From: Streptomyces sp. NBC_00490
GTDB taxonomy: Bacteria; Actinomycetota; Actinomycetes; Streptomycetales; Streptomycetaceae
Length of the DNA stretch: 64,000 bases
Direction: 5' to 3'
NCBI RefSeq assembly: GCF_036013645.1
Contig: NZ_CP107869.1
Span: forward strand, 620,001 to 684,000
Part shown: piece after piece, positions 21,546-64,000 of the stretch
Layout: every line of letters begins with the position of its first letter
Numbering within the stretch: position 1 is the first letter of the stretch
The notes under the pieces: generated by a model
What the model saw: only the letters and a program-made list of their open reading frames with translations
The model's database searches: none
Told to the model about the DNA's origin: nothing
Program-made: the position numbers and the translations under genes

Positions 21546-21566
21546 GAGCGCTATGGGGTGAGCTAC

Positions 21567-21606
21567 GCGGCGGCGGCGAGGTGGGGTGGTCGCCGCCGTC
21601 GCCTTT
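21567..21606 (+). terminator. Hairpin downstream of eccC
   Basis: GCGGCGGCGGCGA (21567-21579) pairs with TCGCCGCCGTCGC (21590-21602) over 13 positions with one G-T wobble. The loop is 10 nt and is followed by CTTTCCC. It lies 21 nt after the eccC stop and is consistent with an intrinsic terminator between the convergent eccC and mycosin genes. Confidence 0.6.
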
Positions 21607-23121: not shown

Positions 23122-26100
23122 AGTCCGGCCGCCTTCGGCGCCGCGGCCACGTCCTCGGGAACAAGGATGCGCAAGTCGTCCAGGGTGGGCGCGGCCAGCG
23201 AACTGAGCCGCCCCGCCTGGCGGGTGACCATCGATTCGAGCACCTGCCGGGCAAGCCGGGCGTTGCCGAACGAGCGATCCCGGGGCAGCGCCTCGAAGTA
23301 GGCCCTGAGCACCGGGCCGGTGCCGGGGCCGCACTCGTAGCCCATGCTCGCGGCCTGTGCGCGCACGATGGTGACCAGTTCCTCGGAGGAGTAGTCGGCG
23401 AAGGCGATCCGGCGCGGGAAGCGGGAGGACAGCCCGGGGTTGGAGGCGAGGAAGCGCTCCATCTCGCCGGTGTAGCCCGCGACGATGACGACCACTTCGT
23501 CGCGGTGGTCCTCCATCAGCTTGAGCAGGGTGTCCACGGCCTCCTGTCCGAAGTCGGCGCCGCCGCCTTGCGGGGTGAGGGTGTACGCCTCGTCGATGAA
23601 CAGCACACCGCCGCGGGCCCGTTCGAAGACCTCACGGGTGAGCTGGGCGGTGTGGCCGATGTAGCGGCCCACCAGGTCGGCACGGGCCGCCTCCACCAGC
23701 TGGCCCCGTTTCAGGATGCCGAGCTGGGTCAGGATCTCGCCGTACAGACGGGCGACAGTGGTCTTGCCGGTGCCGGGCGGGCCGGTGAAGACCAGGTGGT
23801 GGCTGAGCGAGGGCACCGGCAGCCCCGCGGCGGCGCGGTGACGGGCGGTGGTGATGAGGTTGACCAGGTCCGCGACATCGCGCTTCACCTCGGCCAGGCC
23901 GATCATGTCGCCGAGGCGGGTCAGCGGGTCGTCCTGAGGTGCACCGGACCCGGCGGCCGTCGCGGCGCCGGTGGCCGACACGTCCTCCGGCAGCAGCAGC
24001 CGCAGGTCGTGCTCACCGACCTGCGCCTGGGCGGCGAGCCGCACGGCCTGTCGGTCCACCATCTCCTCGAACACCCCGCGTGCGGCACGGCCGTTGCCGA
24101 ATCCGGCGTCCCTGGGCATCGCCTCGAAGTGCGCGGCCAGCGCGGCCTCGGTGCCCTCGCCCAGTTCGTACTGGTGCTGGGCGCACATGTTCCCCATGAT
24201 GGCCACCAGTTCGGGCACGGAGTAGTTCTCGAACTCGACGGTCCGGGAGAAACGGGAGGCGAGGCCCGGGTTCGAGCCCAGGAAGGACTCCATCTCCCGG
24301 GAGTAGCCGGCCGCGACCACGACCACGTCATCGCGGTGGTCCTCCATCAGCTTCAGCAGGGTGTCCACCGCCTCGCGGCCGAAGTCGGCTCCGCCGTTGC
24401 CGCTGTCCGCGGTGAGCGTGTACGCCTCGTCGATGAACAGCACGCCCCCGAGAGCCCGTTGGAAGATCTCGGTGGTCTTGATCGCGGTGCCGCCGACGAC
24501 CTGCGCGACCAGGTCGGCGCGGGAGACCTCCACGAGGTGCCCGCTGCGCAGGGAACCCAGTTCGGCCAGGATCGCCCCGTAGAGGCGGGCGACGGTGGTC
24601 TTACCGGTGCCCGGAGGGCCCGCGAAGATCAGGTGTCTGCTCATCGGCGGTGCGGACATACCGAGTTGCTCGCGGCGCTGGGCGAGCTGGGTCAGGTTGA
24701 CCAGGGTGCCGACCTGCTGCTTGACGTTCTCCAGACCGATCAGCGCGTTGAGGGCGCCGAGCGGGCCGTCCACGCGGTCCGGCGGGGGCGCATCCGCGGC
24801 GCCGGATCCTGCCGGGTCGGTGTTCTCGGCGCTTCCGCTGCCCCAGGCGTCACGCTTGCCGTTGCCGGTGCTCCTGAGGCCGTCCACGGCGAGCCGATCG
24901 CCGGGCGTTGTCTGCACCAGGCCGCCGCCCTCGTTCTCCCGGGCCAGGCAGTTCACGAGCGCGACCGGGGCGGTGGACTCCACCCGGAAGCCGTCCTGGG
25001 CGCCGCCGGAGACCTCACAGCCGCTGAGCGAGGCGAGCGCACCCTCGCGAAGCAGGAAGCCATGCCCCTGAGCGGCGTGGACCGTGGTGCGGTTGGCGGT
25101 CAGCTCCCCGCCGGACGCGACCACGACACCTTCCTCGCCGGATATCTCGACGCGGAAGTCGCGGACGGTGACACTGCCGCCGTCCTCCACGACCAGACCG
25201 CTGGTGGCGCTGTCCGAGACCCCTCCGCCGGCCAGATACAGGGTGCTGCCGGAGGCCACCCGCACGCCCGCGCCCTTCGGCCGGACGATCTCGCAGTCCT
25301 CGGCACGGCCGCGGGCGTCCTTGCCCGCCGTGATGCCGTCACCGGAAGGCTCCACCAGTCGGGCCCGGCGCAGCAGCGGGTTGGCACCACCGCGCACCGA
25401 GACCGCGGGCGAGCCGCCGATCACCTCCAGGCGGTCCAGCTCCGGTGCCGAGTCCTCCTCCAGGAGCAGCCCCGCCTGCTGGCAGTCACGGACCGTCAGA
25501 CCGGTCAGTGCCGGAGAGGCGGCCCCCGCAACCCGCAGCGCCGCGCCCTGCGCGCCGTCCACCCAGCAGTCCTCGAAGGTGCCACGCGCCCGGTCGGTGA
25601 CCAGCACGCCATGTCCTCGGGTACGCGAGACGCGGCAGCGGCGCAGCACCGGATCGGTGCCTGCGGCCAGCGCGATGCCGTTCCCGGAGGCTCCGGTGAC
25701 GCGGACGTCCTCCAGCGTCGTACGGCCCGTGCTGCTCAGGTGCACTCCGGTGCTGGTGTCGTGCACCACGGTGCGCACCACCGTCAGGGAGCAGTTCTGC
25801 TCCAGGGCGATGGAGGGCTTGTCCGTGGAGGAGATGTCGCAGTCCTCGACGCTGCCGGTGGCCTCGCCGCTGGCGAGCAGGCCGTTGCCGCGGGCGGCGC
25901 GCACCGTGCAGCCACGGAGCCGGGCTTCGCCCTGTTCGGCGAGGACCAGGCCGCTGGTGCCCAGGTGCTCCAGCGTGCAGGATTCCACGGTCGTGGGCGT
26001 GGTCGAGGTGACGACGATCCCGGCGCCCTGGGGGTTGCTCACCCGGCAGTCCCGCAGCGCGAGGGAGCCGGTGCCCCCGGCCAGTACCGCGGTCCAGGCG

Positions 26101-26432
26101 ACGCCGACGATCTCGCAGCCGTCCAGCGCGGCCTGCCCGCGCCGCACGTCCACGGCGGGCAGTTCGGCGTCACCGCCGCGCAGGGACAGCTCGGAGAGCA
26201 TCACGGCGTCGGCGCGCAGCGCGAGGACGCTGCCCGAGCGTGGCCTGATCTCGACGGTTCCCCGGCCCTCGGCGGCGGTGAGGGTGACCCGGGTGTGGAT
26301 CACCAGGTTCTCCGCGTACGTCCCGGGCCGGACGCTGATCAGCGCCCCGGTCCGGGCAGCCGCGAGTGCCTCACCGATCGTCCGGTAACGGTCCCGGTCC
26401 CCGGGACCGACCGTCAGTACCTGGCGCGACAC
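23118..26432 (-). CDS. Beta-helix/tandem AAA+ ATPase fusion (EccA-like)
   Basis: This protein of 1104 residues starts at a GTG with AAGGAGG 7 nt upstream. Residues about 15-520 are right-handed parallel beta-helix repeats (pectate-lyase-like coils, many ending in xxxVEDCxI- or LRDCRV-type turns). Two CbxX/CfxQ-type AAA+ domains follow, with Walker A GPPGTGKT at 605-612 and 884-891 and Walker [13 protein letters not shown] in each. EccA, the cytosolic AAA+ protein of ESX systems, has one AAA+ domain behind a TPR-like region. Here the N-terminal domain is a beta-helix and the AAA+ domain is duplicated. No signal peptide is visible, so it is probably cytosolic. It overlaps the mycosin gene by 4 nt. 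Confidence 0.9.
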
Positions 26433-30266: not shown

Positions 30267-32549
30267 TCACTTCCCCTGCGTGTCGAAGGCGACGAACCTC
30301 AACTCCGCCGTGTAGCGCCGCCTTTCGTCATCAGTGAGCCAGGTCTGTTCCGGGGTCGGAAGCATCTCCGTGAACGTGGCCGTGCCGTTCGGGTCCTTGC
30401 GGGCAAGGCGGCGCAGGGCCTTGGCGAGGATCGTGACGTACACCGGACTGTCGAAGTCGACGTAGAAGGGCCGGGACTCCGTCGGAGAGACGACGAAGAC
30501 GTAGCGGGGCAGCCCGAGTCGGGTGCGCCACTGGCGCGCCCGCACGAAACGCCGGGCTTCGTCCTTGTCGTCGGCGAAAGCGGCCTCCGCGGCGGGCAGC
30601 TGCCAGGTCTCGCGGGCGACCACCATGCGGTCGAGGGTGACGCGGGGGGTGTGGGCAGCCGCCGGCAGCAGCTGGAAGAGGTCCATCGACAGCGTGGTCA
30701 GGACGTGTGAGAAGACATCGATCGCGGGGAAGAGCGCACCGTCGGGCAGGCGGACGACGAGCTCGCCGTCGCGCTCCTCGACAAGGGCGTCGGCGCTGCG
30801 GACGGCCCGGGGGCGGGCGGGGTCGGCGGTGAAGTCGGAGAGGGCGACCTGGTAGTCCTGGGGTCGCACCAGCGTGTGCCGGACGCGGGCCGAGAGGCGG
30901 GCGCGGTGCTCCTTGGGGATCAGGGGCATCAGGCGCGGGCCGGGGTGGTCCTGGTCGGTGAGGGCGATCAGTTCCTCGATGTCCGGGTGCTGGTGGGTGA
31001 AGAGCGAGGCACCCAAGGTGTTGGCCGCGAGGTGGAGTTCACCGAGGACGAGGGTGAGGTCGCCGCGTGCGGCAGCCTCAGGACCGTCGGCGGCGATCAT
31101 GATGTCCGGGCTGAGGTAACGGGCCGTGGTCCAGCCTCCCCCACCGTCGAACTCCCGCCGCGCGGCCCTCTCGATGTCGGCGGCGCGCCGGCCGACCCGG
31201 CGGGCCCCCTCGGGGACTGCGAGGATGCGCTGCCAGCGTGCGGCGAACTCCCGCTGCAGCTCCCCGGCTGCCGTGCGGGCACTGCCGTGCAGCACCGGCA
31301 GGCACGCGAACCAGAAGGAGGCCAGGTCGACCGGGCCGGAGGCTGCGAGTCGGTGATGGACCGCGCGGATCTCGGCTTCCACGGTGGCGGCCAGTTGTGA
31401 GGTCAGCCAGCCGGCGCTGTCCATCAGGATGCGCAGTGGGGACAGCGCCTCCACGACAGCCGGGCCGAGGCGGGTGGTGGCGGAGCGCCGCGTGTCGCTG
31501 TACACGAGAGAGCGGCAGGGGGCGGTGGAGGCCGACTTCTCCCGCACGGCGGCCGTGTCCGTGAGGTCGGTGAAGTCGCGCTCCAGCTCCTGCAAAGCCG
31601 TCAGGAGTTCGTCCTCGTCGGTGGCGGCGGCTACTTTCTCCCTGCCTTTCTCCAGGAGGTCGAGGGCAGCGAGGCCACGTTGCCTCAGGCTCGGCTCGCC
31701 GATGGTCAGCAGCCAGGTGCGCAGGGCCCGCTCGGGGTGGGTTCCGGCCGGGACCTCCAGCCGCCAGGTCACCCAGCGGCGGGCCACCAGGTCGTGCAGC
31801 GTCGCGGCGACGTCGGTGCCGGGCAGGTCGCTGGCGATGTCGCGGGCCCGCCGTACCCCGTCACAGTGGGCGAGAACCGCCGCGGCCGCGGCGGACACCG
31901 TCGTCGGGCGCCGGCCGGGCACCCGCACCTCGTCACCGTTCAGCACGACGAACGGCACCCGCCGCGGGGCGATCCAGTCGCGCAGTCCCGCATCCGCGTC
32001 CAGGATCTTGGCAAGCGCGTCAATGCCCCAACTGGCCCAGTACACCGTGGAATCGGCGATCAGGCCGGTTCCCGGGTCGACCTGCACCCCGGACGCCGCC
32101 GTGTCCCAGCGGCCCCAGCCGACGGGGCCGAAGAAGCCGATGGTGTCGTTCTTCACGCAGAACCGCTGCCAGTAGTGCGCGACGAGTTCCTCACGCTGGC
32201 GGGGCATGCTGCTGCGCGCATCGATGCCCGGCTTCCAGCGCAGGAACGGGGCGATGCCGGAGGTGAGCACGGGCCGGTTCTGCCAGGCCACCGCCTGCCG
32301 GAACGCCGGGGTGCGGGCGATGTCCTGAAGAACGTGCGCGGTCTGCACGGCCGCCGCGCCCAGCTCGTCGGCGAAGGCTTCCCAGTCGGGGCCGGACAGC
32401 GGGGTGTCGGGGCCGAACTTGTCCGCGGCCTCGGCGAGTCCGGGGGGAGCCAGGCGTAGCACGCCGTCGGCCGGGAAGCCCGGTCCGCGCAGCGCGAACT
32501 GGTTCCACAGGCGCCAGCGGCCGAGGAACGGAACGAGGTCTTCGGTCAT
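30267..32549 (-). CDS. LanB-like (lantibiotic dehydratase N-domain) protein, copy 1
   Basis: This protein of 760 residues starts MTEDLVPFLGRWRLWNQF, with AAGGAG 6 nt before the ATG. It matches the LanB N-terminal (tRNA-dependent glutamylation) domain from end to end. RFCVKNDTIGFFGPVGWGRW lies near residue 140, CRSLVYSDTRR in the middle, and PFYVDFDSP and a final LPTPEQTWL...ELRF segment at the C-terminus. No SpaB-C elimination domain follows. Such short LanBs include split dehydratases and PEARLs, which use aminoacyl-tRNA to add amino acids to peptide carriers. It is the last gene of the minus-strand set, 139 nt after the carrier protein gene. It is paralogous to the protein at 35449-37770, with almost identical DNA in one block. 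Confidence 0.85.
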   Translation of the reverse strand: MTEDLVPFLGRWRLWNQFALRGPGFPADGVLRLAPPGLAEAADKFGPDTPLSGPDWEAFADELGAAAVQTAHVLQDIARTPAFRQAVAWQNRPVLTSGIAPFLRWKPGIDARSSMPRQREELVAHYWQRFCVKNDTIGFFGPVGWGRWDTAASGVQVDPGTGLIADSTVYWASWGIDALAKILDADAGLRDWIAPRRVPFVVLNGDEVRVPGRRPTTVSAAAAAVLAHCDGVRRARDIASDLPGTDVAATLHDLVARRWVTWRLEVPAGTHPERALRTWLLTIGEPSLRQRGLAALDLLEKGREKVAAATDEDELLTALQELERDFTDLTDTAAVREKSASTAPCRSLVYSDTRRSATTRLGPAVVEALSPLRILMDSAGWLTSQLAATVEAEIRAVHHRLAASGPVDLASFWFACLPVLHGSARTAAGELQREFAARWQRILAVPEGARRVGRRAADIERAARREFDGGGGWTTARYLSPDIMIAADGPEAAARGDLTLVLGELHLAANTLGASLFTHQHPDIEELIALTDQDHPGPRLMPLIPKEHRARLSARVRHTLVRPQDYQVALSDFTADPARPRAVRSADALVEERDGELVVRLPDGALFPAIDVFSHVLTTLSMDLFQLLPAAAHTPRVTLDRMVVARETWQLPAAEAAFADDKDEARRFVRARQWRTRLGLPRYVFVVSPTESRPFYVDFDSPVYVTILAKALRRLARKDPNGTATFTEMLPTPEQTWLTDDERRRYTAELRFVAFDTQGK

Positions 32550-32688
32550 GGCGGACTCCTTGACGCGCGTACGGGACGAGGTGAGGTGGGAGTGGGGTGG
32601 TGCGGCGGCCGACCGGTGGCCCCCGGCCCGCGCACGGACCGAGGTGCGCGGAGCATCGGGGGCCCGGTCGGCGCCACGGTGCCCGGGG

Positions 32689-32946
32689 TCAGGGGCGGCC
32701 GAAGTCGGCGTCGACGACCTCGGCGAGGTCGCGCGGGGTCGGGTAGGCGAAGACCAGGGAGACCGGGACGTCGTCGGAGCCGAGGATCTCCTGGAGGCGG
32801 CCGGTGATCTGGAAGGCGGTCAGGGAGTCGCCGCCCGCCTCGTAGAAGTCGGTGTCCGCGGTGAGGTCGGCGTAGTCCAGGACGTCGCGGAAGATGTCGA
32901 CGAGCAGGTCGAGGGTGCTGACGGCGGTGGCGGTCTTCTCGGTCAT
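32689..32946 (-). CDS. Stand-alone peptidyl/acyl carrier protein
   Basis: This protein of 85 residues starts MTEKTATAVSTLDLLVDI. It is a four-helix carrier domain with the phosphopantetheine site DFYEAGGDSLTAFQI (Ser in GGDSL, near residue 42) and the usual YPTPRDLAEVV helix IV. The ATG overlaps the TGA of the PLP-enzyme gene by 4 nt. It probably carries an aminoacyl thioester loaded by the stand-alone adenylation domain two genes upstream, after activation by the phosphopantetheinyl transferase at 38273. No condensation domain lies in this operon, so the loaded residue must pass to another partner, perhaps the LanB-like enzymes or the NRPSs. Confidence 0.9.
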   Translation of the reverse strand: MTEKTATAVSTLDLLVDIFRDVLDYADLTADTDFYEAGGDSLTAFQITGRLQEILGSDDVPVSLVFAYPTPRDLAEVVDADFGRP

Positions 32947-33959
32947 GGCGTGTCCTTTTGGAAGGTGATCGGTGTGATGCAGGTGTGCAGGCGGGCGGCG
33001 GTGTTGCCGCCGGAGACGACGGCCACGGCGGCTTCGCGGCGGCCGGCGCGCAGGGCTCCGGCCAGGGCGACGGCACCGCTGGGTTCGGCGTCGACGCCGT
33101 GGTGGCGCAACAGGGCTGCCGCGGCGAGGATCTCGGCCTCGCCGACGGCGATGAGGTCATCGACCCGGTCACGGATGATCGGGTACGTGAGGCGTCCGGG
33201 CCGCTGGCCGCGCAGGCCGTCGGCGACGGTGTTGCTCGGCGGCAGCTGTACGGGGTGTCCTGCGGCCAGGGAGCGGGCGTAGCGCGGGGTGAGGGCGGGT
33301 TCCACGCCGACGACCCGGATGGGGCGTCCGGTGGCGGCGAGACAGACGCCCGCCAGGAGGCCGCCGCCGCCGACCGGGACGTAGACCGTCTCGGTGTCGG
33401 GGGCGTCGGTGAGGAGTTCGGTGCCGACGGTGCCCTGGCCGGCGATCACCAGGGGGTGGTCGGACGAGGGGACGAGGACGGCGCCGGTCGTGTCGGCGAG
33501 AGCCCGGGCGCGTTCCTCGCGCGCGGCGACTCCCCCGCTCACCTGGACGGTGTGGGCGCCCAGGGCGCGGATGGCGGCGGCTTTGGCGGGGGCGGCACCG
33601 GAGGCGAGGACGACGGTCAGCTCGAGGCCGAGGGTGCGGGCGATACGGGCGAGGGCGATGCCGTGGTTGCCGGAGGAGCCTGTGACGACGCGGTCGGCGG
33701 CCAGGGCGAGAACGGCGTTGGCGGCGCCGCGGGTCTTGAACGAGCCGCCGATCTGGCGGTGTTCGGCCTTCAGCAGCAGGTGCGGGCCGCGGGCGGCGGT
33801 CCTCGGGCCGGGCAGCAGGGGGGTGCGCACGATGTGCGGGGCGATGCGCGCGGCGGCGATGGCGAGGTCGGCGGGATCAGGGAGATGGGCCACGGAGTGC
33901 GTGGTCGTGGGCCTGGTGCCGAGCACGGTCGGGCGGCCGGTGGTGGTCGGCGTGCTCAT
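32943..33959 (-). CDS. PLP-dependent enzyme of the threonine dehydratase/serine racemase fold
   Basis: This protein of 338 residues is a fold-type II PLP enzyme. The Schiff-base Lys75 lies in GGSFKTRGA, and SSGNHG, the phosphate loop VGGGGLLAG and a C-terminal VVSGGN complete the site. The sequence is closest in pattern to threonine/serine ammonia-lyases and racemases rather than O-acetylserine sulfhydrylases. It may make a keto acid, a D-amino acid or a beta-substituted residue for the adenylation-carrier pair. It is held by 4-nt overlaps between the adenylation gene (ATGA at 33959-33956) and the carrier gene, so it acts in the same step or supplies its substrate. Substrate not predictable from the sequence. 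Confidence 0.85.
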   Translation of the reverse strand: MSTPTTTGRPTVLGTRPTTTHSVAHLPDPADLAIAAARIAPHIVRTPLLPGPRTAARGPHLLLKAEHRQIGGSFKTRGAANAVLALAADRVVTGSSGNHGIALARIARTLGLELTVVLASGAAPAKAAAIRALGAHTVQVSGGVAAREERARALADTTGAVLVPSSDHPLVIAGQGTVGTELLTDAPDTETVYVPVGGGGLLAGVCLAATGRPIRVVGVEPALTPRYARSLAAGHPVQLPPSNTVADGLRGQRPGRLTYPIIRDRVDDLIAVGEAEILAAAALLRHHGVDAEPSGAVALAGALRAGRREAAVAVVSGGNTAARLHTCITPITFQKDTP

Positions 33960-35452
33960 GCGGTGCTCCCGGCGACCAGGCGGCTGCGGTCGGCCTTGCC
34001 GCCGCGGGTGGTGGGCAGGGCGGTGTGGCGGTGGAAGAGGCGCGGCATCAGGTGGGGCGGCAGAGTGCGGGCCAGATGGGCGCGCAGGGCGGCGTCCGGC
34101 GTCGTGTGGTCTCCGGTGACGTGCGCGGCCAGGTAGACGCGGCCGCGGTCGTCGGTGTGCGGGGTGATGACGGCCCCGCTCACGGCGGGGTGGGTGAGCA
34201 GGGCGCCCTCGATCTCGGCGGGGTCGACGCGGTAGCCGCGGATCTTGATCTGCCGGTCACTTCGGCCTTCGTAGCGCAGCCCTTGGGGGCTCCAGCGGCC
34301 CAGGTCACCGGTGCGGTACATGCGGGAGCCGGGCGGTCCGTAGGGGTCGGGGACGAACGAGGCGGCGGTGCGCGCCGGGAGTCCTCCGTAGCCGCGGGCG
34401 AGGCCCGTGCCCCCGATGTACACCTCGCCCACGGCGCCGTCGGGGACGGGTGCGAGGTCGGGGCCGAGGACGCGGATGGTGGCGCCGCTCCTGGGCAGGC
34501 CGACGACGTCGTCGGCCGGGTCCGGGTCGGCCGCGACCATGTGGCGGGTGGTCGTCATGGTGCACTCGGTCGGCCCGTACTGGTTGACGAGGCGGCCGGG
34601 GACGAGGTGCCGGCCGCCCGCGGTGAGGAAGGGGCGCAGGGACTCGCCGCTGGAGGCGACGAGGGTGACGCCGGCCAGCGGGTCGGAAAGGTCGCGCTGT
34701 CCGGCGAGGTGGGTGAGGAAGGACGGGGTGACGCTGAGCAGGGCGGTGACACGGTGTTCGCGCACGGTGCGGGCGAATTCGGCCGGGCGCAGCAGTCGGG
34801 CGCGCTCCACGAGGACGAGGCGGGCGCCGGCCAGCAGGGGTGCGAAGGTGTCGCGGATCGAGGCGTCGTAGCCGAGCGGAGCGGTCTGCAGGACGACGGT
34901 GTCGGGGCCGAGGCCGAAGGCGCGGGCGGTGTCGCGCAGATAGCTGTCGAGGGCGTGGTGCTCGACGAGGACGGGGCTCGGCTCGCCGGTGCTGCCGGAG
35001 GTGTGGCTGACGTAGGCCAGGGCCCGTGGGTCGGCGGGCGTGAGCGGTGGGTCGTCGGCCGGGGTGGCGCGGTCCGGTGCGTCCAGGCGGACGACGGGGA
35101 CGCCGAGATCGAGGTCGGCGGCGTGCGCCGTGGTGGTCAGCAGCAGTCGGGCGCCCGCGCTGCGGACGAAGGATGCCAGCCGGTCGCGGGGCTGGCTCAC
35201 GTCCAGGGTGAGGAAGGCCGCGCCGCAGCGCAGGACGGCCGTCATGGCGGCGACCGCGTCCAGGCCGTGCTCGACGGCGACGGCGCAGACGGTCTCCGGC
35301 CGCAGGCCGTGCGCCCGCAGCAGACGGGTCACCTCTGCTGTCCGGTCGTCGAGTTGCCGGTAGGTCACCGGGCCGTCGGGGGTCTGAAGGGCGATCCGTC
35401 GCGGGTGCCGGGCGGCGTGTTCGGCGATGTCGTCGGCGAACGTGCGCATCAC
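33956..35452 (-). CDS. Stand-alone NRPS-type adenylation domain
   Basis: This protein of 498 residues is an AMP-forming amino-acid adenylation enzyme. It shows A3 (HTSGSTGEPSP, atypical because the usual PKG is missing), A4 (GYDASIRDTF), A5 (NQYGPTECT), A7 (YRTGDLGRW), A8 (GRSDRQIKIRGYRVDPAEIE) and A10 (TTRGGKADR). The pocket residues I can align give roughly DARSASQMTK, which matches no specificity I know. It should load the carrier protein two genes downstream and may need the MbtH-like protein encoded divergently. It overlaps the upstream LanB gene and the downstream PLP gene by 4 nt each, so one translationally coupled unit is implied. Confidence 0.88.
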   Translation of the reverse strand: MMRTFADDIAEHAARHPRRIALQTPDGPVTYRQLDDRTAEVTRLLRAHGLRPETVCAVAVEHGLDAVAAMTAVLRCGAAFLTLDVSQPRDRLASFVRSAGARLLLTTTAHAADLDLGVPVVRLDAPDRATPADDPPLTPADPRALAYVSHTSGSTGEPSPVLVEHHALDSYLRDTARAFGLGPDTVVLQTAPLGYDASIRDTFAPLLAGARLVLVERARLLRPAEFARTVREHRVTALLSVTPSFLTHLAGQRDLSDPLAGVTLVASSGESLRPFLTAGGRHLVPGRLVNQYGPTECTMTTTRHMVAADPDPADDVVGLPRSGATIRVLGPDLAPVPDGAVGEVYIGGTGLARGYGGLPARTAASFVPDPYGPPGSRMYRTGDLGRWSPQGLRYEGRSDRQIKIRGYRVDPAEIEGALLTHPAVSGAVITPHTDDRGRVYLAAHVTGDHTTPDAALRAHLARTLPPHLMPRLFHRHTALPTTRGGKADRSRLVAGSTA

Positions 35453-37770
35453 CGGCCCCCCTCGCCGTTGACGGTCTGGTCGACGGCGACGAAGCGCAGT
35501 TCGGAGGTGTAGCGCTGTCCGTCCGCGTCGGTGAGCCAGGCCTGTTCGGGGGTGGGCAGCATCTCGCTGACCTTCAGGCGGGCGCCGGGGTCCTTGCGGG
35601 CGAGCCTACGGGCGGCCTTGGCGAGGATGGTGATGTAGAGGGGGCTGTCGAAGTCGACGTAGAACGGGCGGGGTTCGGCCGGGGAGACGACGAACACGAA
35701 ACGCGGCAGGTCGTGGCGGCCCTGCCAGTGGCGGGCCCGGACGAAGCGGGCGGCCTCCGACTTCTCGTCGGCGAAGTCGACCTCTGCGACCGGCAGTTGC
35801 CAGGTCTCGCGGGCCAGGATCATGCGGTCGACGCTGATGCGCGGGGTGTGGTCGCCTTCGGGGCGCAGGGTGAAGCGGTCCATCACGCGCTGGGTGAGGG
35901 TGTTGGCGTAGGCGTCGAGGAGGTCGTAGCGGGTGCCGTCGGGCAGCACCGCGGTGAGCCGGCCGTCGGTGTCCTGCACCAGGACGTCGGCGCTCAGCGC
36001 GGTGCGCGGACGGTGGGGGTCTCCGGTCTGGTCGACCAGCGCCACGTAGTGGTCCTGGTCCCGGTCGAGCGAGGGGCGGCTGCGGGTGGACCACTTAAGG
36101 GGCAGCTCCTTGGCGAGCATGGGCAGCAGACGCGTGGCGGGGAAGTCGCGGCCGGTCTCGGCGATCAGCTCGTCGCGGTCGGGGTGCTGGTGCACGAAGA
36201 GGGAGGCGCCCATGGTGTTCAGGGCGCAGTGCATCTCGCCCAGGACCAGTGCCACGTCGCCGCGTGCCAGCGCCGCCTCGTCCTCGGCGACGACGAGCAG
36301 GTCGGGGCTGATGTAGCGGGCCAGGGACCAGCCGTCACCGGGCTCGTCGAACTCCTCACGGACCCGGGCTGCGAGGTCGGCGGTGGTCAGCCGGACGCGG
36401 CGCGCGCCGGGCGGGATGTCGAGCAGGCGGGCCCACTTGGCGCGCAGTTCGCCCTGGACGGCGTCGATGAGGTCGCCGGCCTCGGGGTGCGGTGAGGGCA
36501 GGGTGTGCAGCCACAGGGTGGCGAGGTCGACGGGGCCGTCGGCGGCGAGCCGGTCGTACACGGTGCGCAGGCGGGCGCGGATGCCGTCGGCGAAGCGGTT
36601 GGTCATCCAGCGCGCGGCGGTCAGGCACAGCTGGAGGGGTTCCAGGTGGGCGAGCAGGCCCGGTCCTGCGGTGGCGGTGGCCGCGCGGCGCGTGTCGGAG
36701 TAGACCAGGCCGCGGCAGGGCGCGGTCCGGGCGCCCTTGGCGCGCTGGGCCTCGGTGTCGGTGAGGGCGGCGAAGTCGGCTTCCAGGGCGCCGATCGCCG
36801 CGGTGAGCGCGTCCGCGTCGTCGCCGGCGTCGCGCACGGCGTCCCGCCCGCCCTCCAGGACGGCGAGTTTGGCCAGCGCACGACCGCGTGCCGCCGCGTC
36901 GGGGACCCGCTCCACGATGGCGCGCAGCGCGCGGTCGGGGTGGGTGGCCGCGGGTACCTCCAGACGCCAGTGCACCCAGCGCCTGCGCGCCAACTCCCGC
37001 ACGACGGCGGCGGTGTCGTCCTCGGGCAGATCGAGTGCGGTGGCGATCTCGGCCACCGGCCGGGTCCCGTCGCACAGTTCCAGTACGGCCGCCTCACGCT
37101 CCCCCACCGGCTGCGCGGGCCGCCCGGGCACCCGGACGGTGGTGCCGACGACACGGACGATGGAGACGCGGCGCGGCGGGATCCAGCGCATCAGCGCGGC
37201 GTCCTCGGCCAGCACCTTCGCCAGGGCGTCGATCGCCCAGCCGGAGAAGTACACCTCTCCCGCGGCCAGGAAGGCGTTCCCGGCGCGAGTGGAGACGGCG
37301 TCCGCCGCGGCGAGGTCCCAGCGGCCCCAGCCGACGGGACCGAAGAAGCCGATGGTGTCGTTCTTCACGCAGAACCGCTGCCAGTAGTGCGCGACGAGCT
37401 CCTCACGCTGGCGGGGCATGCTGCTGCGCGCATCGATGCCCGGCTTCCACCGCAGGAACGGGGCGATGCCGGTGCGCAGTACGGCGGGGTTCTGCCAGGC
37501 CAGGGCCGCCTGGAAGCGGGGCCGGGCGGCCACCTCCTGCAGGTGGCGGGCGGTGTGCACGGCCGCGGCGGCCAGCTCCTCGCTGAAGCCGTCCCACTCG
37601 GGGCCCGACAGCGCCGTGCCGGGGCCGAACTTGTCGGCGGCCTCGGCCAGTCCGGGTGGGGCCAGGCGCAGCACGCCGTCGGCGGGGAAGCCCGGGCCGC
37701 GCAGCGCGAACTGTTCCCACAGCCGCCAGCCTCCGCCCGGCAGCAGGACAGGTGCGTGCTCGTCCGACAT
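35449..37770 (-). CDS. LanB-like (lantibiotic dehydratase N-domain) protein, copy 2
   Basis: This protein of 773 residues starts MSDEHAPVLLPGGGWRLW, with GGAAGGAG 6-7 nt before the ATG at 37770. It is aligned over its full length with the product of 30267-32549. It shares FLRWKPGIDARSSMPRQREE, KNDTIGFFGPVGWGRW, CRGLVYSDTRR, PFYVDFDSP and LPTPEQAWL, and also ends without an elimination domain. It is therefore a second tRNA-dependent aminoacyl/glutamyl transferase candidate. It is the first gene of the minus-strand operon, and its stop overlaps the adenylation gene by 4 nt. A 12-bp hairpin lies in its leader. Reading upstream of 37770 in frame gives low-complexity sequence and is rejected. Confidence 0.85.
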   Translation of the reverse strand: MSDEHAPVLLPGGGWRLWEQFALRGPGFPADGVLRLAPPGLAEAADKFGPGTALSGPEWDGFSEELAAAAVHTARHLQEVAARPRFQAALAWQNPAVLRTGIAPFLRWKPGIDARSSMPRQREELVAHYWQRFCVKNDTIGFFGPVGWGRWDLAAADAVSTRAGNAFLAAGEVYFSGWAIDALAKVLAEDAALMRWIPPRRVSIVRVVGTTVRVPGRPAQPVGEREAAVLELCDGTRPVAEIATALDLPEDDTAAVVRELARRRWVHWRLEVPAATHPDRALRAIVERVPDAAARGRALAKLAVLEGGRDAVRDAGDDADALTAAIGALEADFAALTDTEAQRAKGARTAPCRGLVYSDTRRAATATAGPGLLAHLEPLQLCLTAARWMTNRFADGIRARLRTVYDRLAADGPVDLATLWLHTLPSPHPEAGDLIDAVQGELRAKWARLLDIPPGARRVRLTTADLAARVREEFDEPGDGWSLARYISPDLLVVAEDEAALARGDVALVLGEMHCALNTMGASLFVHQHPDRDELIAETGRDFPATRLLPMLAKELPLKWSTRSRPSLDRDQDHYVALVDQTGDPHRPRTALSADVLVQDTDGRLTAVLPDGTRYDLLDAYANTLTQRVMDRFTLRPEGDHTPRISVDRMILARETWQLPVAEVDFADEKSEAARFVRARHWQGRHDLPRFVFVVSPAEPRPFYVDFDSPLYITILAKAARRLARKDPGARLKVSEMLPTPEQAWLTDADGQRYTSELRFVAVDQTVNGEGGR

Positions 37771-38028: not shown

Positions 38029-38280
38029 GTGACGCAACCCGACTTCGCCAACGGCGCGGACGCCGAGGAGGTCCGCCCGGACATCGACGAGGAGTACCTC
38101 GTGGTGCGCAACGACGAGGAGCAGTACTCGATCTGGCGGGCGGACCGCGAACTGCCCGCGGGCTGGCACCCGGAGGGGCTGCGCGGCAGCCGGCAGGCGT
38201 GCCTGGACCACATCGACGTGATCTGGACGGACATGCGTCCGCTGAGCCTGCGCCGGCGGCTGGCCGGGGCAGATGCCTGA
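38029..38280 (+). CDS. MbtH-like protein
   Basis: This protein of 83 residues starts at a GTG 6 nt after GGGAGG. The MbtH signature is complete: VVRNDEEQYSIW, LPAGWHPEG and the C-terminal CLDHIDVIWTDMRPLSLR. MbtH-like proteins bind adenylation domains and are often needed for their folding or activity. Its partner could be the stand-alone adenylation enzyme (divergent operon) or an NRPS at the right end. The stop overlaps the start of the phosphopantetheinyl transferase gene by 8 nt. Confidence 0.95.
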   Translation: MTQPDFANGADAEEVRPDIDEEYLVVRNDEEQYSIWRADRELPAGWHPEGLRGSRQACLDHIDVIWTDMRPLSLRRRLAGADA

Positions 38281-39094
38281 GGGGCTCCCGGGCAGGCTCC
38301 CGGGTCCCTCGGCCCACGATCCGCCGGCAGCCGACACGTCCTGCGTGCTGACCGCTCCCGCCGCACCTGTGGTACTGCCGCAGCGGTTGTGTCCGGCCGT
38401 GCTGGACCTGTCGGGGCTGCGGGACGGGCCGGCCGGGCAAGGCCCCCGTGGCCTGCGTGCCCCGCTGGAGCTGTACCTGGCCCGGGTCGCGGAGCAGGAC
38501 GCGCAGACCCTCCGGCACGCCCGCGAGGTCCTCGACGCGGAGGAACGGGCCCGCGCCCGCGCCTTCCGGCACGACCGGGACCGCGACGCCTACGTGGTCG
38601 CCCACGCAGCGCTGCGGGGGGTGCTGAGCGTCGTGCTCGGGGTACGCGCCGACGCGCTGGCGCTGACCCGCGAGCCCTGCACGGGCTGCGGCGGGCCGCA
38701 CGGGCGCCCGGTGCTGCCCGCATCAGGGGTGCACTTCTCGCTGTCGCACAGCGGGGGGCTGGTGCTGGTGGCGCTCGCGCCTGCGCCGGTCGGCGTCGAC
38801 GTGGAGGAGCTGGCCACCGTGAAGGTCATGCTCAGCGCGCAGGCGGCACTGCACTGCGCGGAGGCGGACGAGCTGGCACGCCTGCCCGCCTACAGCCGGC
38901 CGGCGGCGTTCACCCGCGCCTGGGTACGCAAGGAGGCCTACCTCAAAGGGCTGGGCACGGGTCTGGTCCGCAATCCCGCGCTCGACTACCTGGGTACCGG
39001 CCCGACGCCCACCGACCCGGCACCGGGTTGGGCGGTGCGCGACGTTCTGGTCCCGTCCGGGTATGCGGCCGCCGTGGGCCTGCACACCTGCTGA
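38273..39094 (+). CDS. Sfp-type 4'-phosphopantetheinyl transferase
   Basis: This protein of 273 residues carries the family motifs: FSLSHSGG in the centre, GVDVEEL (174-180; the acidic residues bind magnesium) and WVRKEAYLKG (217-226). It transfers the phosphopantetheine arm from CoA to carrier proteins. The targets here are the stand-alone carrier protein and the NRPS T domains. The first ATG (38273) overlaps the MbtH gene by 8 nt and is consistent with coupled translation. A few N-terminal residues could be in excess. Confidence 0.93.
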   Translation: MPEGLPGRLPGPSAHDPPAADTSCVLTAPAAPVVLPQRLCPAVLDLSGLRDGPAGQGPRGLRAPLELYLARVAEQDAQTLRHAREVLDAEERARARAFRHDRDRDAYVVAHAALRGVLSVVLGVRADALALTREPCTGCGGPHGRPVLPASGVHFSLSHSGGLVLVALAPAPVGVDVEELATVKVMLSAQAALHCAEADELARLPAYSRPAAFTRAWVRKEAYLKGLGTGLVRNPALDYLGTGPTPTDPAPGWAVRDVLVPSGYAAAVGLHTC

Positions 39095-40099: not shown

Positions 40100-40711
40100 T
40101 CAGACCAGGCCGTGGCGCACGGCGTGGGCGACCGCGTGGGCGCGGTTGCGGGCCTGCAGCCGGGTCATGAGCTCGTAGATGACGTTTTTCACGGTGTGTT
40201 CGGAGCAGCTCAGCAGCAGGGCGATGTCGGCGTTGCCGTGTCCCTCGGCCATCAGGCGCAGGACCGAGGTCTGCCGTGCGGTCAGGGCCGGCGTGCCGGG
40301 GGCGGGCGGTCCGAGCGGGCGGATGCCGGTGCTCAGCACGCCGGACAACTCCGGGTAGGGGATGCTCGGATGAGGGTGCGCGGCCCGGTGGACGGCCCTG
40401 AGGAGGCTGTCCTCGGTCAGTTCGGCGGCACCGATGACGACCGCTCCGGCGCGCAGGACCCGCCGCCGGCCCTCCGAGCTGACGGTGTCGCAGACGAACA
40501 GCACCGGCCCGGGCGTGCGCGGCACGCGCAGTGCCCGTTCCGTATCGGCGGCGACGATCACGGTGACCGTCCCGGCGGACGCGCACTGGTCCGCGCCGGG
40601 CTCGAGTCCGGCTCGTTCAGCGAGCGCACGGATGCGTTCCGCGCCCGGGGCGGGCACGACCCGCACCGCGACGGCAGGGGCGACGGGCGGCGCTGTCAGG
40701 GTGGCGGTCAC
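40100..40711 (-). CDS. LuxR-family regulator (orphan, receiver-like N-terminus)
   Basis: This protein of 203 residues starts at a GTG in a GTGA overlap with the upstream regulator gene. The C-terminal LuxR helix-turn-helix is clear (LTARQTSVLRLMAEGHGNAD, then SEHTVKNVIYELMTRLQARN). The N-terminal half is receiver-like but shows no phosphoacceptor Asp in the expected place. It forms a tandem with a paralogue whose last residues are similar (NRAHAVAxAxRxGL in both). The pair faces the LanM gene divergently and is probably the local regulator of the lanthipeptide part of the cluster. Confidence 0.85.
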   Translation of the reverse strand: MTATLTAPPVAPAVAVRVVPAPGAERIRALAERAGLEPGADQCASAGTVTVIVAADTERALRVPRTPGPVLFVCDTVSSEGRRRVLRAGAVVIGAAELTEDSLLRAVHRAAHPHPSIPYPELSGVLSTGIRPLGPPAPGTPALTARQTSVLRLMAEGHGNADIALLLSCSEHTVKNVIYELMTRLQARNRAHAVAHAVRHGLV

Positions 40712-41319
40712 AGCAGGCCCGCCCGCAGTGCGTAGGCGACCGCGTGGGCGCGGTTGCGCAACCTGAAGCGCTGGGTGATGTCGTGCACGACGGTGGTCAC
40801 GGTGCGAGGCGAGTAGGCGAGCCGCTGGGCGATCTCCGCCGTCTCGTGCCCGTCGGCCACCAGGCGCAGCACCGAACGCTCCCGTTCGGACAGCATGCCC
40901 GCGCTCCAGCCGCCGGAGCCGCGCACGGACGCGTCCGGCTGGTCCAGGAGCTCCTCCAGCAGGCCCGGTGGCAGGGTGCAGTCGTCGCGCGCGGCCGCCA
41001 GCACCGCGTGGGCCAGTCGGGAGGCGTCGGCCTCACGGCGCAGCAGCAGGCCCCGGGCACCGGCGGCCAGGGCGTGCAGGACGTCCCCGGAGGCGAGGGT
41101 GCCCGCCACCAGGACGACGGCGGGGCGGTGGGGCTGGGTGCGGGTGGCGCGCACCATGTCGAGTTCGGCCGGACCGAGCCGGTCCACGGTGAGGACGGCG
41201 ACCCGCGCGTCGGCGGGCTCGCAGACGGTCAGTTCGGATCGGACGAGCAGGGTCGCGCAGATGCCTGCCTCCAGCACCGGGTCGAGTGCGACCACACTGA
41301 CACCTACGGGTGCTCCCAT
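40708..41319 (-). CDS. LuxR-family regulator paired with its neighbour
   Basis: This protein of 203 residues starts MGAPVGVSVVALDPVLEA, with AAGGAG 6-7 nt before the ATG at 41319. A receiver-like N-terminal domain (VSVVALDPVLEAGICATLL, VVLVAGTL, ALAAGARGLLLRR) is followed by a LuxR helix-turn-helix (LSERERSVLRLVADGHETAE, SPRTVTTVVHDITQRF). The usual Asp of response regulators is replaced in the core strand (AVLTVDRLG), so ligand- or partner-dependent control is more likely than phosphorylation. In-frame sequence up to 41793 lies upstream of this start and is not coding in character. Confidence 0.86.
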   Translation of the reverse strand: MGAPVGVSVVALDPVLEAGICATLLVRSELTVCEPADARVAVLTVDRLGPAELDMVRATRTQPHRPAVVLVAGTLASGDVLHALAAGARGLLLRREADASRLAHAVLAAARDDCTLPPGLLEELLDQPDASVRGSGGWSAGMLSERERSVLRLVADGHETAEIAQRLAYSPRTVTTVVHDITQRFRLRNRAHAVAYALRAGLL

Positions 41320-41768
41320 CTGCTGCTCCTTGGAAGATCGTGCGCCGGGCCTGAGGCTCCGCGGGCGGTCTGGCATGGGGACGTGAGAACACCGTGCCGT
41401 CCGCACGCCCGCCGGGGCATCGGTAGCCGGACCCCACATTTGCGCACCGGCCACGCCCCACACCCCGGTGCCACCGCACAGGCGGCTGAGACCCGGCCGC
41501 TCAGCCGGCCCGGCGAGACGGGGCGCAGGCCGGACGGACCCCGGCATGGGGAGCCATGGGGAGCACGCACACCCAGGCACCGCCCCACCCCGGTCCGGGC
41601 GGCCCCGCTCCCCACCGCCGCCCCCTGCGCACGCACGAAGGACCACGTCTGCCACCTGCGGTTTCCTCGGCCCATCCCCCATACCCCCACCGGCGGGTGG
41701 CAGGCCGGGGAAAATATGGGGGACGGTTACCCATGTGGGGGCCGCAGAGGGTCTGCGACCTTCTTCTC
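41320..41768. promoter_or_regulatory. Divergent intergenic region between the LuxR pair and LanM
   Basis: These 449 bp hold the promoters of the two-gene regulator unit and of LanM. An unusual A/T patch, GGGAAAATATGGGGG (41708-41722), could be a -10 region or, with its GGGGGA, the ribosome-binding site of an ATG at 41733. A short direct repeat (ATGGGGAGC at about 41545 and 41556) is the only other structure seen. Confidence 0.5.
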
Positions 41769-44700
41769 GTGACCGACACCGCCAGCCTCCCAACTCCCCG
41801 GAGCGCCGGACTGCCCGCCACCTGGTGGGCCCCGGCCCTGACCCTCACGGAGCGGCTCCACGCCCCCGGGCACCCCGGGGCGGCCGCCGCGACCGGCGCC
41901 TTGGGGCCGATGCCCTGGGCCGTCGGGGACGCGGAGGGCTTCGCCCTGCGGCTGGCCCGCCTGGGCGTGGACGGCGACACCGCGGCAGCCCTGGCCGCCG
42001 AGTCCGCCGAGTGCCTTGCGGAGCGGACCGCCAAGCCCGACTGGGCGTCCTACGCGGAAGAGGTTCTGGCCGGCGCGCCCGAGGGCCTTGTCGAGGTCGA
42101 GGTCGGCGGCGAGGGCCCCGACGTGTTCGCACCGGTCGTCAAGCCGCTGGTCGCCACGGCCGCCGCCCGCCTCGCGGACCTGACGGCCGGCGTCCCGGAC
42201 GCCGAAGCCACCGTGTGGCGGGACGGCTTCACCCGGCGCCTGACCCGACAGCTGGTCCGGCAGGCCGCCCGCACCCTGGTCCACGAACTGCACACCGCCC
42301 GGCGCTCCCGGCGCCTGGCGGGGGCCGGTCCGCGCGAGCGGTTCGCCTCCTTCACCGCGGCCACCGGCACCCGGCGGGGGCTGTCGGACCTGTTCACCAC
42401 CTACCCCGTGCTGGCCCGGATGCTGACCCGGACCGCCCTGGACGCAACGCAGGCCGCCGCCGAGCTGGTCACCCGCTTCCAGGCCGACCGCCCCGCCCTG
42501 ACCGCCACCCTCCTCGACGGCCGTGCGCCGGGCAGGCTCGTCCGCGTCGACCTCGGCCGCGGCGACGCCCACCAGGGCAACCGGTCCGTGGCGATCCTGC
42601 ACTTCGACGACGGCAGCCGGCTCGTGCACAAGCCCCGCCCGCTCGACCAGCACGCCCTCCTGGACCACCTGGTCGCCTGGCTCAACGCCAAGGTGCCCGG
42701 ACTGGGGCTGCGCACACCGCGCACGCTGCGCCGCGACACCCACGGCTGGCTGGAGTTCATCGAGCACCGCTGGTGCACCTCGGTCACCCAGACCGACGCG
42801 TTCTACCGCCGCCAAGGCGCCCTGCTGGCCCTGCTGTACGCGGTGGACGGTGCCGACATGCACTACGAGAACGTCATCGCCCACGGCGACCAGCCGGTCC
42901 TGGTCGACGCCGAGACGCTGCTCCACACCGGTCTCGGACAGCCCCTCACGGCGGGCGCCGACCCGGCCGCGGACGCCCTGGCCGCCTCCGTCCACCGCAC
43001 CTGCCTGCTCCCCCACCTCCTCATCGGTGAACACGGCGCCCTGGACATCTCCGCGCTCGGCCGCGACACCGACGGCACCTTCCCCAGCGAGGGGCTGCGC
43101 TGGGAGGACAGCGGACAGGACACGATGCGGGCCGTACGCGGCCCGCTGCCCAGCCCCGCCGCCCAGAACCACCCGCTGCCCCACGGCACTTCCCTCTCCG
43201 GCGCCGACCACACGGCTGCCCTGCTGGGAGGATTCCGCACCGCCTACACGGCGATCGCCGCGCACCGCCGCGAACTGCTCGACGCCGACGGCCCGTTGGC
43301 ACGCTGGACCGAGCGTCCGGCCCGGCTGATCGCCCGCGCGACCCGGCTGTACGCCACCCTCCTGGAGGAGTCCACCCACCCCGCGCTGCTGGGCAACGCG
43401 CTGGCCCGGGAAGGGGTGTTCGCGGTGCTGTGGACGGAGTCCGCGCACGACACGGCGCGCGAGCGCCTCACCGAGCACGAGACCGCGGCCCTGTGGCGCG
43501 GCGACATCCCCTTCTTCACCCACCGGCCCACCGACACCGCGGTCCACGCCGACGACGGCACCTCACTGCCCGGCGTCCTGCCGATGGCCGCCGCGACCGC
43601 GGTGCGCGAGAAGATCGGCCGCATGGACGAGGTCGACTGCCACGACCAGGAATGGATCATCTCGGCCACCCTCGCGGTACGCGGCGCGAGTTCACCGCTG
43701 GACCGGCCGCGGTCGGAACTGGCCCCGGCCCCTGTACCGCCGGTGGCACCGGAACCGTCCCGCCTGCTGGCCGCCGCCTGCGGGATCGCCGACGAGATCG
43801 CCGCCCGCGCGCTCCGGGGCGGATCCCGCACCAACTGGATCGGCCTGGAACGGGTGTCGGGAGCTCACTGGGCCGTACTGCCCATGGGGGCGGGCCTGGC
43901 CCAGGGCTACTGCGGAGTCGCGCTGTTTCTGGCCCACACCGAAGCACTCACCGGATCCGGGCGCTACGGCACGGCGGCCCGGGAGGCGGTACGCCCGCTC
44001 CCCGCCCTCCTCAAGGCACTCGCCGAGGACCCCGAACTGAGCGCGGCGGCCGGCCCGGGCGCCTACGACGGACTCGGCGGGATCGTGTACGCCCTGGTCC
44101 GCATGGCACGGATCCTCGACGAGGACCTGCGGGCATGCCTGCCGGACGCGCTGACCGCACTGGGCCACGCCGCGACGGCATGTTCCGACGCCGGGCTGGC
44201 CCAGGGCCGAGCCGGGGCACTGGCCGCCGCGGTCGCCGCGTACGAGGCCACCGGCGATCCGGCAGCCCTGCACCTGGCGGACCAGGTCGCCGACCTGCTG
44301 CTGGCTGCTCAAGCAGCCGGCCACATCCCTGCCACCGCTGGTCTCGCCGACGGCGCCACCGGCATCGCGTGGGCGCTCCAGCGCTACGCCGCACACCGGC
44401 CCGAGCGCGCCACCCCTGTCACCGAGGCTGCCCGCGCCCTGCTCGACTCCACGCCGCCCACCGGCGCAGAAGCGGATCTGTCCTGGTCGCACGGGCTGGC
44501 CGGAAGGGCCGCCGCCGGCCTGCCGGAAGCCACCGCCCGCCTCGCGGACGCCTCCACCGGCCCCGACCTCAGCCTCGCCCAGGGCGCCCTCGGCAGGCTG
44601 GAGGCCCTGGCCGTCCTGGCCCAACAGGGCGACACCACGGCCCAGTCGGCCCTGGCACGGCACAGCGGTCACGTCCTCGCCCTCGTCGAGGCCCAGAGCC

Positions 44701-44837: not shown

Positions 44838-44861
44838 CCCACACCAGAAGGGACCACCGTC

Positions 44862-48185: not shown

Positions 48186-49433
48186 TCAGCGCATCTCCCG
48201 CACCGCGCGGGAACCGAGCACCGCCAGTCCCGTGCAGGCGAGGACCACGGCTACGACACCGAACAGGGCCAGGTGCCCCGTCCCGGCCAGAAGACCGCAC
48301 AGGATCAGCGACAGCGGCGCGGCGGCGTAGCCGAGGACCATGTCGACGGAGACGACGCGGGTCAGGACGTCCTGCGGGATGTTCCGCTGGATCCAGCTCA
48401 GGCCGAACACTCCCTGGTAGCCGATGGCGAAACCCATGGCCACGACGGTCGCGACCACGACCGGGGTGCTCTGCGCCAGGCCGAGGACGGCCATCCCCGC
48501 GGCCAGCCATCCTGCGAGGGCGGCCACCAGCAGGCCGACGCGGGGCCGTCCGCCCACGGCGCCGCCGGCGAGGGTGCCGAGGACCGCTCCCCCGGCCAGG
48601 GCGCCGTTGAGGACGCCGAGTGTGGCCGAGCCTCCGCGCAGCACCTGGTCGGCGAGGGTGGCGAAACCGACCGTGAAGGGGCCCGCGTAACAGAAGTTCA
48701 CAGCTGTGTCGAGGGCGACGATGGTGCGCAGGCGCGGGTCGCGCCAGGTGAAGGTGATGCCTTCCCGGATGCGCGCACCGAGGGACGGGCCCGTCGTGGC
48801 CGGTCCGGTGCGGGGGGTGTCGGGCCGGGGGCGGGTGTGGATGCGGGCCACGCACAGGCCGCACAGGGCGAAGCAGACCGCGTCGACGAGGAAGGCGACC
48901 GGCGCCTGCGTCAGGGCGATGACGACACCGCCGACGGCGGGGCCCAGCACAGCCGCCGTACGCGCGCCGGCGCCCAGCAGTGCGTTGGCCGGGGCGAGCA
49001 GGTCCTTGTCGACCACCGACGGCAGGATGGAGACACGGGCCGGCTGGAAGAACGCGTCGACGGCGCCGAAGGCGGCAGCCGCCGCGCACAGCATCCACAC
49101 GGTCAGGTGCCCGGTGAGTCCGGCGGCGCCGACCGTGGCCATCAGCACGGCGCGGGTCCAGCTGGAGGCCACCATCAGGGTGCGGGTGGACCAGGTGTCG
49201 CCGAGGGTGCCGCCCACCAGGGTGAGCAGGGCGCGGGGCACGGCCTGGAACGCCAGGACGTAGCCGAGGGTGAGGGTGGACCCGGTCAGGCTCAGGGTGA
49301 TCCAGGAGAAGGCGACGACGCTGAATCCGTCACCGAGCAGGGAGAGCGCCTGCCCCGTCCACAGCAGGCGGAAGGAACGGTGCCGGGCGGGCGCCCACAG
49401 CCGCGGGCGGTCCGCGGCGAGGGTGGTGGCCAT
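48186..49433 (-). CDS. MFS exporter
   Basis: This protein of 415 residues is a 12-helix major facilitator resembling drug and natural-product exporters of the MFS_3/EntS type. Charged loop motifs such as GGTLGDTWSTRTLM after the second helix and a central cytoplasmic loop with RTGPATTGPSLGARIREG support this. GAGAGG lies 7 nt before the ATG at 49433. It is downstream of the P450 gene on the same strand (37 nt apart), so it probably exports the NRPS product and provides self-protection. Confidence 0.88.
   Translation of the reverse strand: MATTLAADRPRLWAPARHRSFRLLWTGQALSLLGDGFSVVAFSWITLSLTGSTLTLGYVLAFQAVPRALLTLVGGTLGDTWSTRTLMVASSWTRAVLMATVGAAGLTGHLTVWMLCAAAAAFGAVDAFFQPARVSILPSVVDKDLLAPANALLGAGARTAAVLGPAVGGVVIALTQAPVAFLVDAVCFALCGLCVARIHTRPRPDTPRTGPATTGPSLGARIREGITFTWRDPRLRTIVALDTAVNFCYAGPFTVGFATLADQVLRGGSATLGVLNGALAGGAVLGTLAGGAVGGRPRVGLLVAALAGWLAAGMAVLGLAQSTPVVVATVVAMGFAIGYQGVFGLSWIQRNIPQDVLTRVVSVDMVLGYAAAPLSLILCGLLAGTGHLALFGVVAVVLACTGLAVLGSRAVREMR

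Positions 49434-50696: not shown

Positions 50697-50700
<4 letters not shown>
49471..50700 (-). CDS. Cytochrome P450 (NRPS tailoring)
   Basis: This protein of 409 residues is a bacterial class I P450. It shows the I-helix motif AGGETTSN, the ExxR motif EETLR, and the haem-binding loop [14 protein letters not shown], where Cys is the haem ligand. There is no membrane anchor, so it is soluble and needs ferredoxin partners encoded elsewhere. The ATG at 50700 overlaps the NRPS stop (ATGA), which couples it to the assembly line and suggests hydroxylation of a carrier-bound residue or of the peptide. An upstream in-frame extension to 51474 lies inside the NRPS gene and is rejected. Confidence 0.93.

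Positions 50701-57953
<7,253 letters not shown>

Positions 57954-58103: not shown

Positions 58104-64000
<5,897 letters not shown>

Follow-up and report, generated by a model that had tools for sequence, protein, structure and literature searches.

The subject of this study is a stretch of 64,000 nucleotides from Streptomyces sp. NBC_00490 (hereafter the window; contig NZ_CP107869.1, C1:620001-684000 of a 10.8-Mb, two-contig genome), within which features are given by their window positions. Its minus strand carries an operon of five genes that encode two LanB-type enzymes, LanB2 and LanB1, a stand-alone adenylation (A) domain, an enzyme dependent on pyridoxal phosphate (PLP), here called PALP, and a stand-alone peptidyl carrier protein (PCP). 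Computation established the operon and its conservation, its co-location with non-ribosomal peptide synthetase (NRPS) genes, the residues of peptide aminoacyl-tRNA ligases (PEARLs) in both LanBs, the lack of an elimination domain and the anatomy of a split module. The five genes almost certainly belong to an NRPS gene cluster. The best overall explanation, to which we give about an even chance, is that the five genes serve the cluster as a head-unit cassette, with A and PCP as the first module and the LanBs as ligases working on the head unit.

The genes are transcribed in the order LanB2, A, PALP, PCP, LanB1. LanB2 (35449..37770, minus strand, 773 aa), annotated as a lantibiotic dehydratase, is at most 91% identical to the LanB2s of named Streptomyces and 58% identical to its paralogue LanB1 (30267..32549, minus, 760 aa); against a cut-off of 28 bits, the two match PF04738 (Lant_dehydr_N) with 164 and 153 bits, respectively. 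Between them lie A (33956..35452, minus, 498 aa), a true amino acid adenylation domain (AMP-binding, 220 bits; TIGR01733, 357 bits, cut-off 317.4); PALP (32943..33959, minus, 338 aa; PF00291, 232 bits); and PCP (32689..32946, minus, 85 aa; PF00550, PP-binding, 55 bits), with its GGDSL motif. Three junctions show overlaps of exactly 4 nt, LanB2/A (35449-35452), A/PALP (33956-33959) and PALP/PCP (32943-32946), and PCP is separated from LanB1 by a gap of 139 nt. An order of LanB, A, PLP enzyme and carrier with exact 4-nt overlaps, and a second LanB behind, had been put forward in a preliminary description made from the letters of the window, and the coordinates and Pfam matches bear it out.

That description had also proposed a neighbourhood search for operons combining LanB, carrier and adenylation genes. 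Scanning a named genome collection from LanB2, a starting point that favours close relatives, gave 66 loci, and since 48 of these, from several actinobacterial families, hold all five genes, the operon is not a chance arrangement, and the LanBs, A, the PLP enzyme and the carrier form one conserved set. The other 18 loci are incomplete, 14 of them cut by contig ends according to our reading of the coordinates and four uncut. One of the latter (L022) lacks everything after LanB2 with no contig end cutting it, and both A and LanB1 are present in other records of S. hirsutus; two from Amycolatopsis (L060, L063) carry on one contig a two-module NRPS with A and PCP directly behind it; and one from Actinomadura (L074) reads A-PCP-LanB1 in the stretch covered. 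The 4-nt overlap is likewise repeated: in the 47 loci with all five called as genes it occurs at LanB2/A in 42, at A/PALP in 34 and at PALP/PCP in 29, with three more fused at the last junction. In a wider, evenly drawn sample of the class, 13 of 394 genomes matched the LanB profile with an E-value of 1e-20 or lower.

The link to peptide assembly comes from the two large genes at the far end of the window. NRPS2 (50697..57953, minus) reads as C-A-T-C-A-T-TE (condensation, adenylation, thiolation and thioesterase domains, from Pfam, motifs and codes), and NRPS1 (58104..64000, minus, running on past the window to ~64313 or slightly further, with an uncertain start) as C-A-T-C-A-T. In the continuation taken from the same genome, only 66 codons lie between the called start of NRPS1 and the upstream in-frame stop, so that within this protein no A-T can come before the first C domain. 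No free A-T pair other than the stand-alone A and PCP was seen in the region, and as NRPS1 opens with a C domain, the pair has the arrangement of a split loading module; we infer that it is module 1. An NRPS2 C domain was found on the contig of LanB2, 14.9-20.3 kb away, in all 19 loci searched. Beside NRPS2 are a cytochrome P450 (49471..50700, minus, PF00067) and an exporter of the major facilitator superfamily (MFS; 48186..49433, minus, PF07690), of which copies 70% and 68% identical, respectively, stand beside NRPS2 in Actinosynnema, where copies of all four genes, NRPS1 included, adjoin the LanB operon. Upstream of LanB2 follow genes for an MbtH-like protein (38029..38280, plus, PF03621, 70 bits), a 4'-phosphopantetheinyl transferase (38399..39094, plus, PF01648, 46 bits) and a pair of LuxR-type regulators (40100..41295, minus, PF00196) that is found beside the cluster in several genera. 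The preliminary description thus had the operon set right but missed the two NRPS genes, the P450, the transporter, the MbtH-like protein and the phosphopantetheinyl transferase that make it part of an NRPS cluster.

What the LanBs do can be approached from their descent and their residues, both examined in 55 rows from 31 sources rather than in all loci, with three rows (L115, L119, L121) checked apart. The tree separates a LanB2 clade (100/96) from a LanB1 clade (95/91), each with members from Streptomycetaceae, Pseudonocardiaceae and Micromonosporaceae, and places the single Actinomadura LanB inside the latter. The duplication is older than the 55 rows, the pair having been kept side by side as ancient paralogues. 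In the stretch covered, the Actinomadura locus, a single case, points to a tie of LanB1 with A-PCP and of LanB2 with PALP. Residues were matched by motif and not by alignment to a proven PEARL. Of the ATP-grasp-type residues (Asp/Glu, Glu, His and Glu-x-Arg; BhaB7 558, 575, 577, 813, 815), the first three are present in 55/55 rows and the last two in 54/55, the exception being a gap; they are also complete in two of the three rows outside the count, the third having Asp for Glu. By contrast, two ordinary LanBs of the same genome have none of the five (L001) or only the counterpart of E813 (L002). The Tyr/Arg pair that binds the CCA end of tRNA (BhaB7 205, 208) is Y126/R129 in all 55 rows (L121, one of the three checked apart, has Met for Tyr), but it occurs in the two ordinary LanBs as well and is not discriminating. 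K710, considered as a further PEARL mark, was dropped after the residue count.

The elimination domain PF14028 is absent from the window and the cluster, as the preliminary description had said of both LanBs; its matches in the genome are confined to C1:587154 and C1:8199771, neither of which falls in the window. About 30 kb left of the window (C1:582001-602000), an ordinary LanB is accompanied by an elimination domain on a protein of its own, among neighbours whose starts, by eye, resemble azole-forming and oxidase proteins. The combination of glutamylation and elimination domains, fused or split, that defines class I lanthipeptide dehydratases such as NisB, MibB, TbtB and GodF is therefore not found here, and the two families differ further in the ATP-grasp residues described above. 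Searches against solved LanB structures gave no match from single sequences and, with a profile, only two weak PqqC/D rows. LanB1 and LanB2 are probably PEARL-type amide ligases and not dehydratases. Of the two chemistries raised in the preliminary description, amide-bond formation as in PEARLs is thus the better, given the ATP-grasp residues in all rows but one gapped, and glutamylation with elimination finds no support.

A dehydration route could nevertheless be imagined, with glutamylation by the LanBs at a hydroxyl, that of the Thr in module 4 or a different one, and subsequent elimination to a dehydroamino acid by PALP or a C domain. The LanBs do resemble the class I dehydratase family, NRPS2 does contain a Thr-type A domain, and PALP does belong to a dehydratase superfamily. 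However, glutamyl transfer would have no use for the ATP-grasp residues, most of which the two ordinary LanBs lack, the cluster has no PF14028 domain, and Salinispora locus L061 keeps both LanBs although no Thr code was seen in its 22-kb stretch, beyond which there are more A domains. We regard this route as improbable.

The window also holds features of lanthipeptide biosynthesis. At 41733-45077, by the LuxR pair, a LanM (TIGR03897, 641 bits) is followed by an open reading frame (ORF) of 71 aa, of which the last ~45 residues, one Cys and a hydrophobic segment among them, are nearly identical in 20 aligned sequences. Both lie 4-7 kb from LanB2, and LanM homologues occur near the LanB operon in 25/66 loci, Salinispora included. 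This proximity is what could speak for the LanBs modifying the small ORF, or a distant ribosomal precursor, with A-PCP belonging to another pathway, the case that the preliminary description had named as the one that would overturn its proposal. But neither LanM nor the ORF is found in 41/66 LanB loci (many of these short), the Actinosynnema stretches read have NRPSs right beside the LanB operon without LanM and ORF, and A, PALP and PCP sit inside the operon in 48/66 loci. We therefore consider this case very improbable, and the milder suggestion of a joint modification of the nearby ORF is unlikely on the first two counts.

On the carrier side of the operon, the pocket of the A domain reads D-A-R-S-A-S-Q-M-T in the window and D-A-R-S-[AVC]-S-Q-M-T in 58 of 60 A rows, the window's included (L074 and L076 deviate), with Arg at position 239 in all 60; position 278 was read by hand from motifs, as Ser in A and as Asn in the first A domain of NRPS2. 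The code of the latter, DFWNVGMVH, is one residue off the printed Thr code DFWNIGMVHK, which serves as a check on the method. NRPS codes vary between clusters, while the head cassette stays. PALP is assigned by its sequence to the serine racemase/threonine dehydratase family, and a racemase- or dehydratase-type activity is predicted; among solved chains, a serine racemase and a threonine deaminase come closest to it, and none of the best 25 of 36 NCBIfam matches was above cut-off for a subfamily. Its SFK and GGGG motifs, which we take to be the PLP lysine and the Gly-rich phosphate loop, do not vary among 13 aligned sequences, one of them from the window. In four relatives, three of the 47 loci (L030, L049, L064) and P0255, PALP and PCP share one reading frame, and these fusions, some of which may be frameshift errors, hint that PALP works with the carrier.

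These elements can be joined into a pathway. The stand-alone A domain would load an amino acid onto the stand-alone PCP, and the pair, as a split first module, would feed NRPS1. PALP would adjust the head-unit amino acid in stereochemistry or oxidation state, by racemase- or dehydratase-type chemistry and possibly on the PCP, and LanB1 and LanB2 would each phosphorylate a free carboxylate with ATP and join it to the amine of an aminoacyl-tRNA. NRPS1 and NRPS2 would then add four more residues, one of them probably Thr, before the TE domain releases the peptide; the head unit would be constant across genera and the NRPS part variable. For action of the ligases on the head unit we see roughly equal odds either way; their substrate there may be the carrier-bound amino acid.

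The closest precedent suggests where the LanBs might act otherwise. In the available text of a 2024 study (PMC11212132), the threopeptin (sna) cluster of Stackebrandtia nassauensis encodes a PEARL-like enzyme, SnaE, for which deletion shows a need in the addition of Thr and for which the use of aminoacyl-tRNA is proposed. As in threopeptin, a stand-alone enzyme annotated as LanB here lies within an NRPS cluster; unlike it, the cassette has two ancient paralogues instead of one LanB, its A and PCP stand alone where the loading A-T of threopeptin is part of an NRPS, and it includes a PALP, whereas the genes listed in that text include neither a PALP nor a stand-alone A or PCP. If the LanBs worked late, as SnaE does, A and PCP would be an ordinary loading module, and the free carboxylate of an NRPS-bound or released peptide would be extended independently of the PCP. 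This characterised precedent, with the PEARL residues retained in both LanBs, lends the idea some weight. In threopeptin, however, the free carboxylate is left by a ureido-forming C domain (EHHxxHDG), and that motif was absent from the motif hits of the cluster and of the relatives' NRPS genes scanned, in which genes at locus ends were seen in part; a ureido chain reversal was rejected for this reason. Moreover, the recurrent tie of the LanBs to a stand-alone carrier favours earlier action, and we regard late action as the less likely course, though a real contender. As a separate observation, the second C domain of NRPS2 (53274-54653) carries DCHVVLDG in place of HHxxxDG, and distant relatives have ECHAxLDG.

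Action on the carrier raises the matter of where a free carboxylate would come from. Without an indication of the ureido-forming C domain by which threopeptin solves it, activation of an amino diacid at its side chain would supply one, and the D-A-R pocket of A and the four PALP-PCP fusions hint at such tethering. The A domain would then activate an Asp-type acid at the side-chain carboxyl and pass it to the PCP, leaving the alpha-amino and alpha-carboxyl groups free; PALP would act on, for example racemise, the free amino-acid end on the carrier; and LanB1 and LanB2 would extend the alpha-carboxylate with aminoacyl-tRNAs while NRPS1 extends from the side-chain thioester. Support is mixed. That Arg239 marks A domains activating a side chain is a presumption, and a text search for such signatures gave no relevant paper. 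In the available part of PMC12283262, the printed common Asp and Glu codes lack Arg239 and the alpha-aminoadipate code has it, but so does the similar printed code of an Asn-activating domain, which counts against side-chain activation. An amino diacid held by its side chain with the alpha-carboxylate free is thus a speculative suggestion that we rate as rather doubtful.

Other systems share parts of this design. The ATP-site and CCA-binding residues published for TglB, AmmB2 and BhaB1/BhaB7, PEARLs of ribosomally synthesized and post-translationally modified peptides, have counterparts in LanB1 and LanB2 (available text of PMC12945691 and PMC11962472). Those enzymes, as described there, lengthen a small ribosomal scaffold peptide at its C-terminus, and no such peptide was found here between PCP and LanB1, where an ORF scan gave only ORFs that overlap known genes or lie on the opposite strand; a scaffold hidden in that gap was rejected on these grounds, as was the C-terminus of the PCP, which varies among the PCP rows shown. 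Livipeptin of Streptomyces lividans 66, as far as the accessible text of PMC10548850 goes, similarly couples an aminoacyl-tRNA enzyme to A-PCP without a C domain, but its enzyme is of the leucyl/phenylalanyl-transferase family, where here it is LanB-type and NRPSs with C domains are also present. Albopeptide was dropped as an example of LanB action on an NRPS, since a review, in its available part, assigns its dehydrations to C domains.

Several further arrangements were seen around related genes. Two genes of similar size lie upstream of LanB2 in most of seven loci (L056, L058, L060, L061, L065, L067, L075), with an MFS gene between in L058 and L067. Those in L061 (Salinispora) encode an aminotransferase of class III and a protein like ornithine carbamoyltransferase. 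A carbamoyltransferase-like gene is also present in L060 (Amycolatopsis), where LanB1 is followed by an OCD gene and the contig carries a second PALP and a TauD-type oxygenase. Another Streptomyces operon (L118:6646-14088) is a second LanB-carrier-PLP set, in which a PEARL-type LanB (32% identical) is combined with A, a carrier, an aminotransferase, PALP and an OCD/mu-crystallin protein. A further actinobacterial NRPS cluster (L112:9434-12031) has a LanB (41% identical) with a free PP-binding protein directly upstream. Copies of LanB1 79-87% identical occur on large replicons filed as plasmids in S. albogriseolus, Streptomyces sp. CL7 and S. fungicidicus, and given these the cluster may be mobile. 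Elsewhere in the window (17568-26432), an FtsK/SpoIIIE ATPase, a subtilase and an AAA/beta-helix protein stand side by side, a group that presumably resembles a type VII secretion locus.

Threopeptin has already shown that NRPS clusters can include LanB-type PEARLs, and the general idea is not new; the PEARL-like chemistry anticipated in the preliminary description stands, although that account had missed this published case (PMC11212132). The available text of the same paper counts about two thousand NRPS and polyketide synthase clusters with enzymes labelled lantibiotic dehydratase, some fused to thiolation or thioesterase domains, and one characterised. No description of the present cassette, in which two LanBs are paired and accompanied by PALP and by A and PCP as separate proteins, appeared in the titles and abstract openings of the literature searched, outside which most subscription journals lie. 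The cassette is an uncharacterised variant, and its product is predicted to be an actinobacterial peptide. As two LanBs are fixed in a compact, conserved cassette with their own loading enzyme and carrier, the question of their substrate can be tested with five purified proteins. If an amino acid on the carrier is indeed what the LanBs extend, tRNA-dependent peptide synthesis would be merged with the assembly line at one site, which would aid structure prediction and engineering. If, in addition, the head unit is held by its side chain, tRNA-dependent peptide synthesis would take place on an NRPS carrier itself, and the assembly line would be bidirectional, giving a branched iso-peptide in place of a ureido chain reversal.
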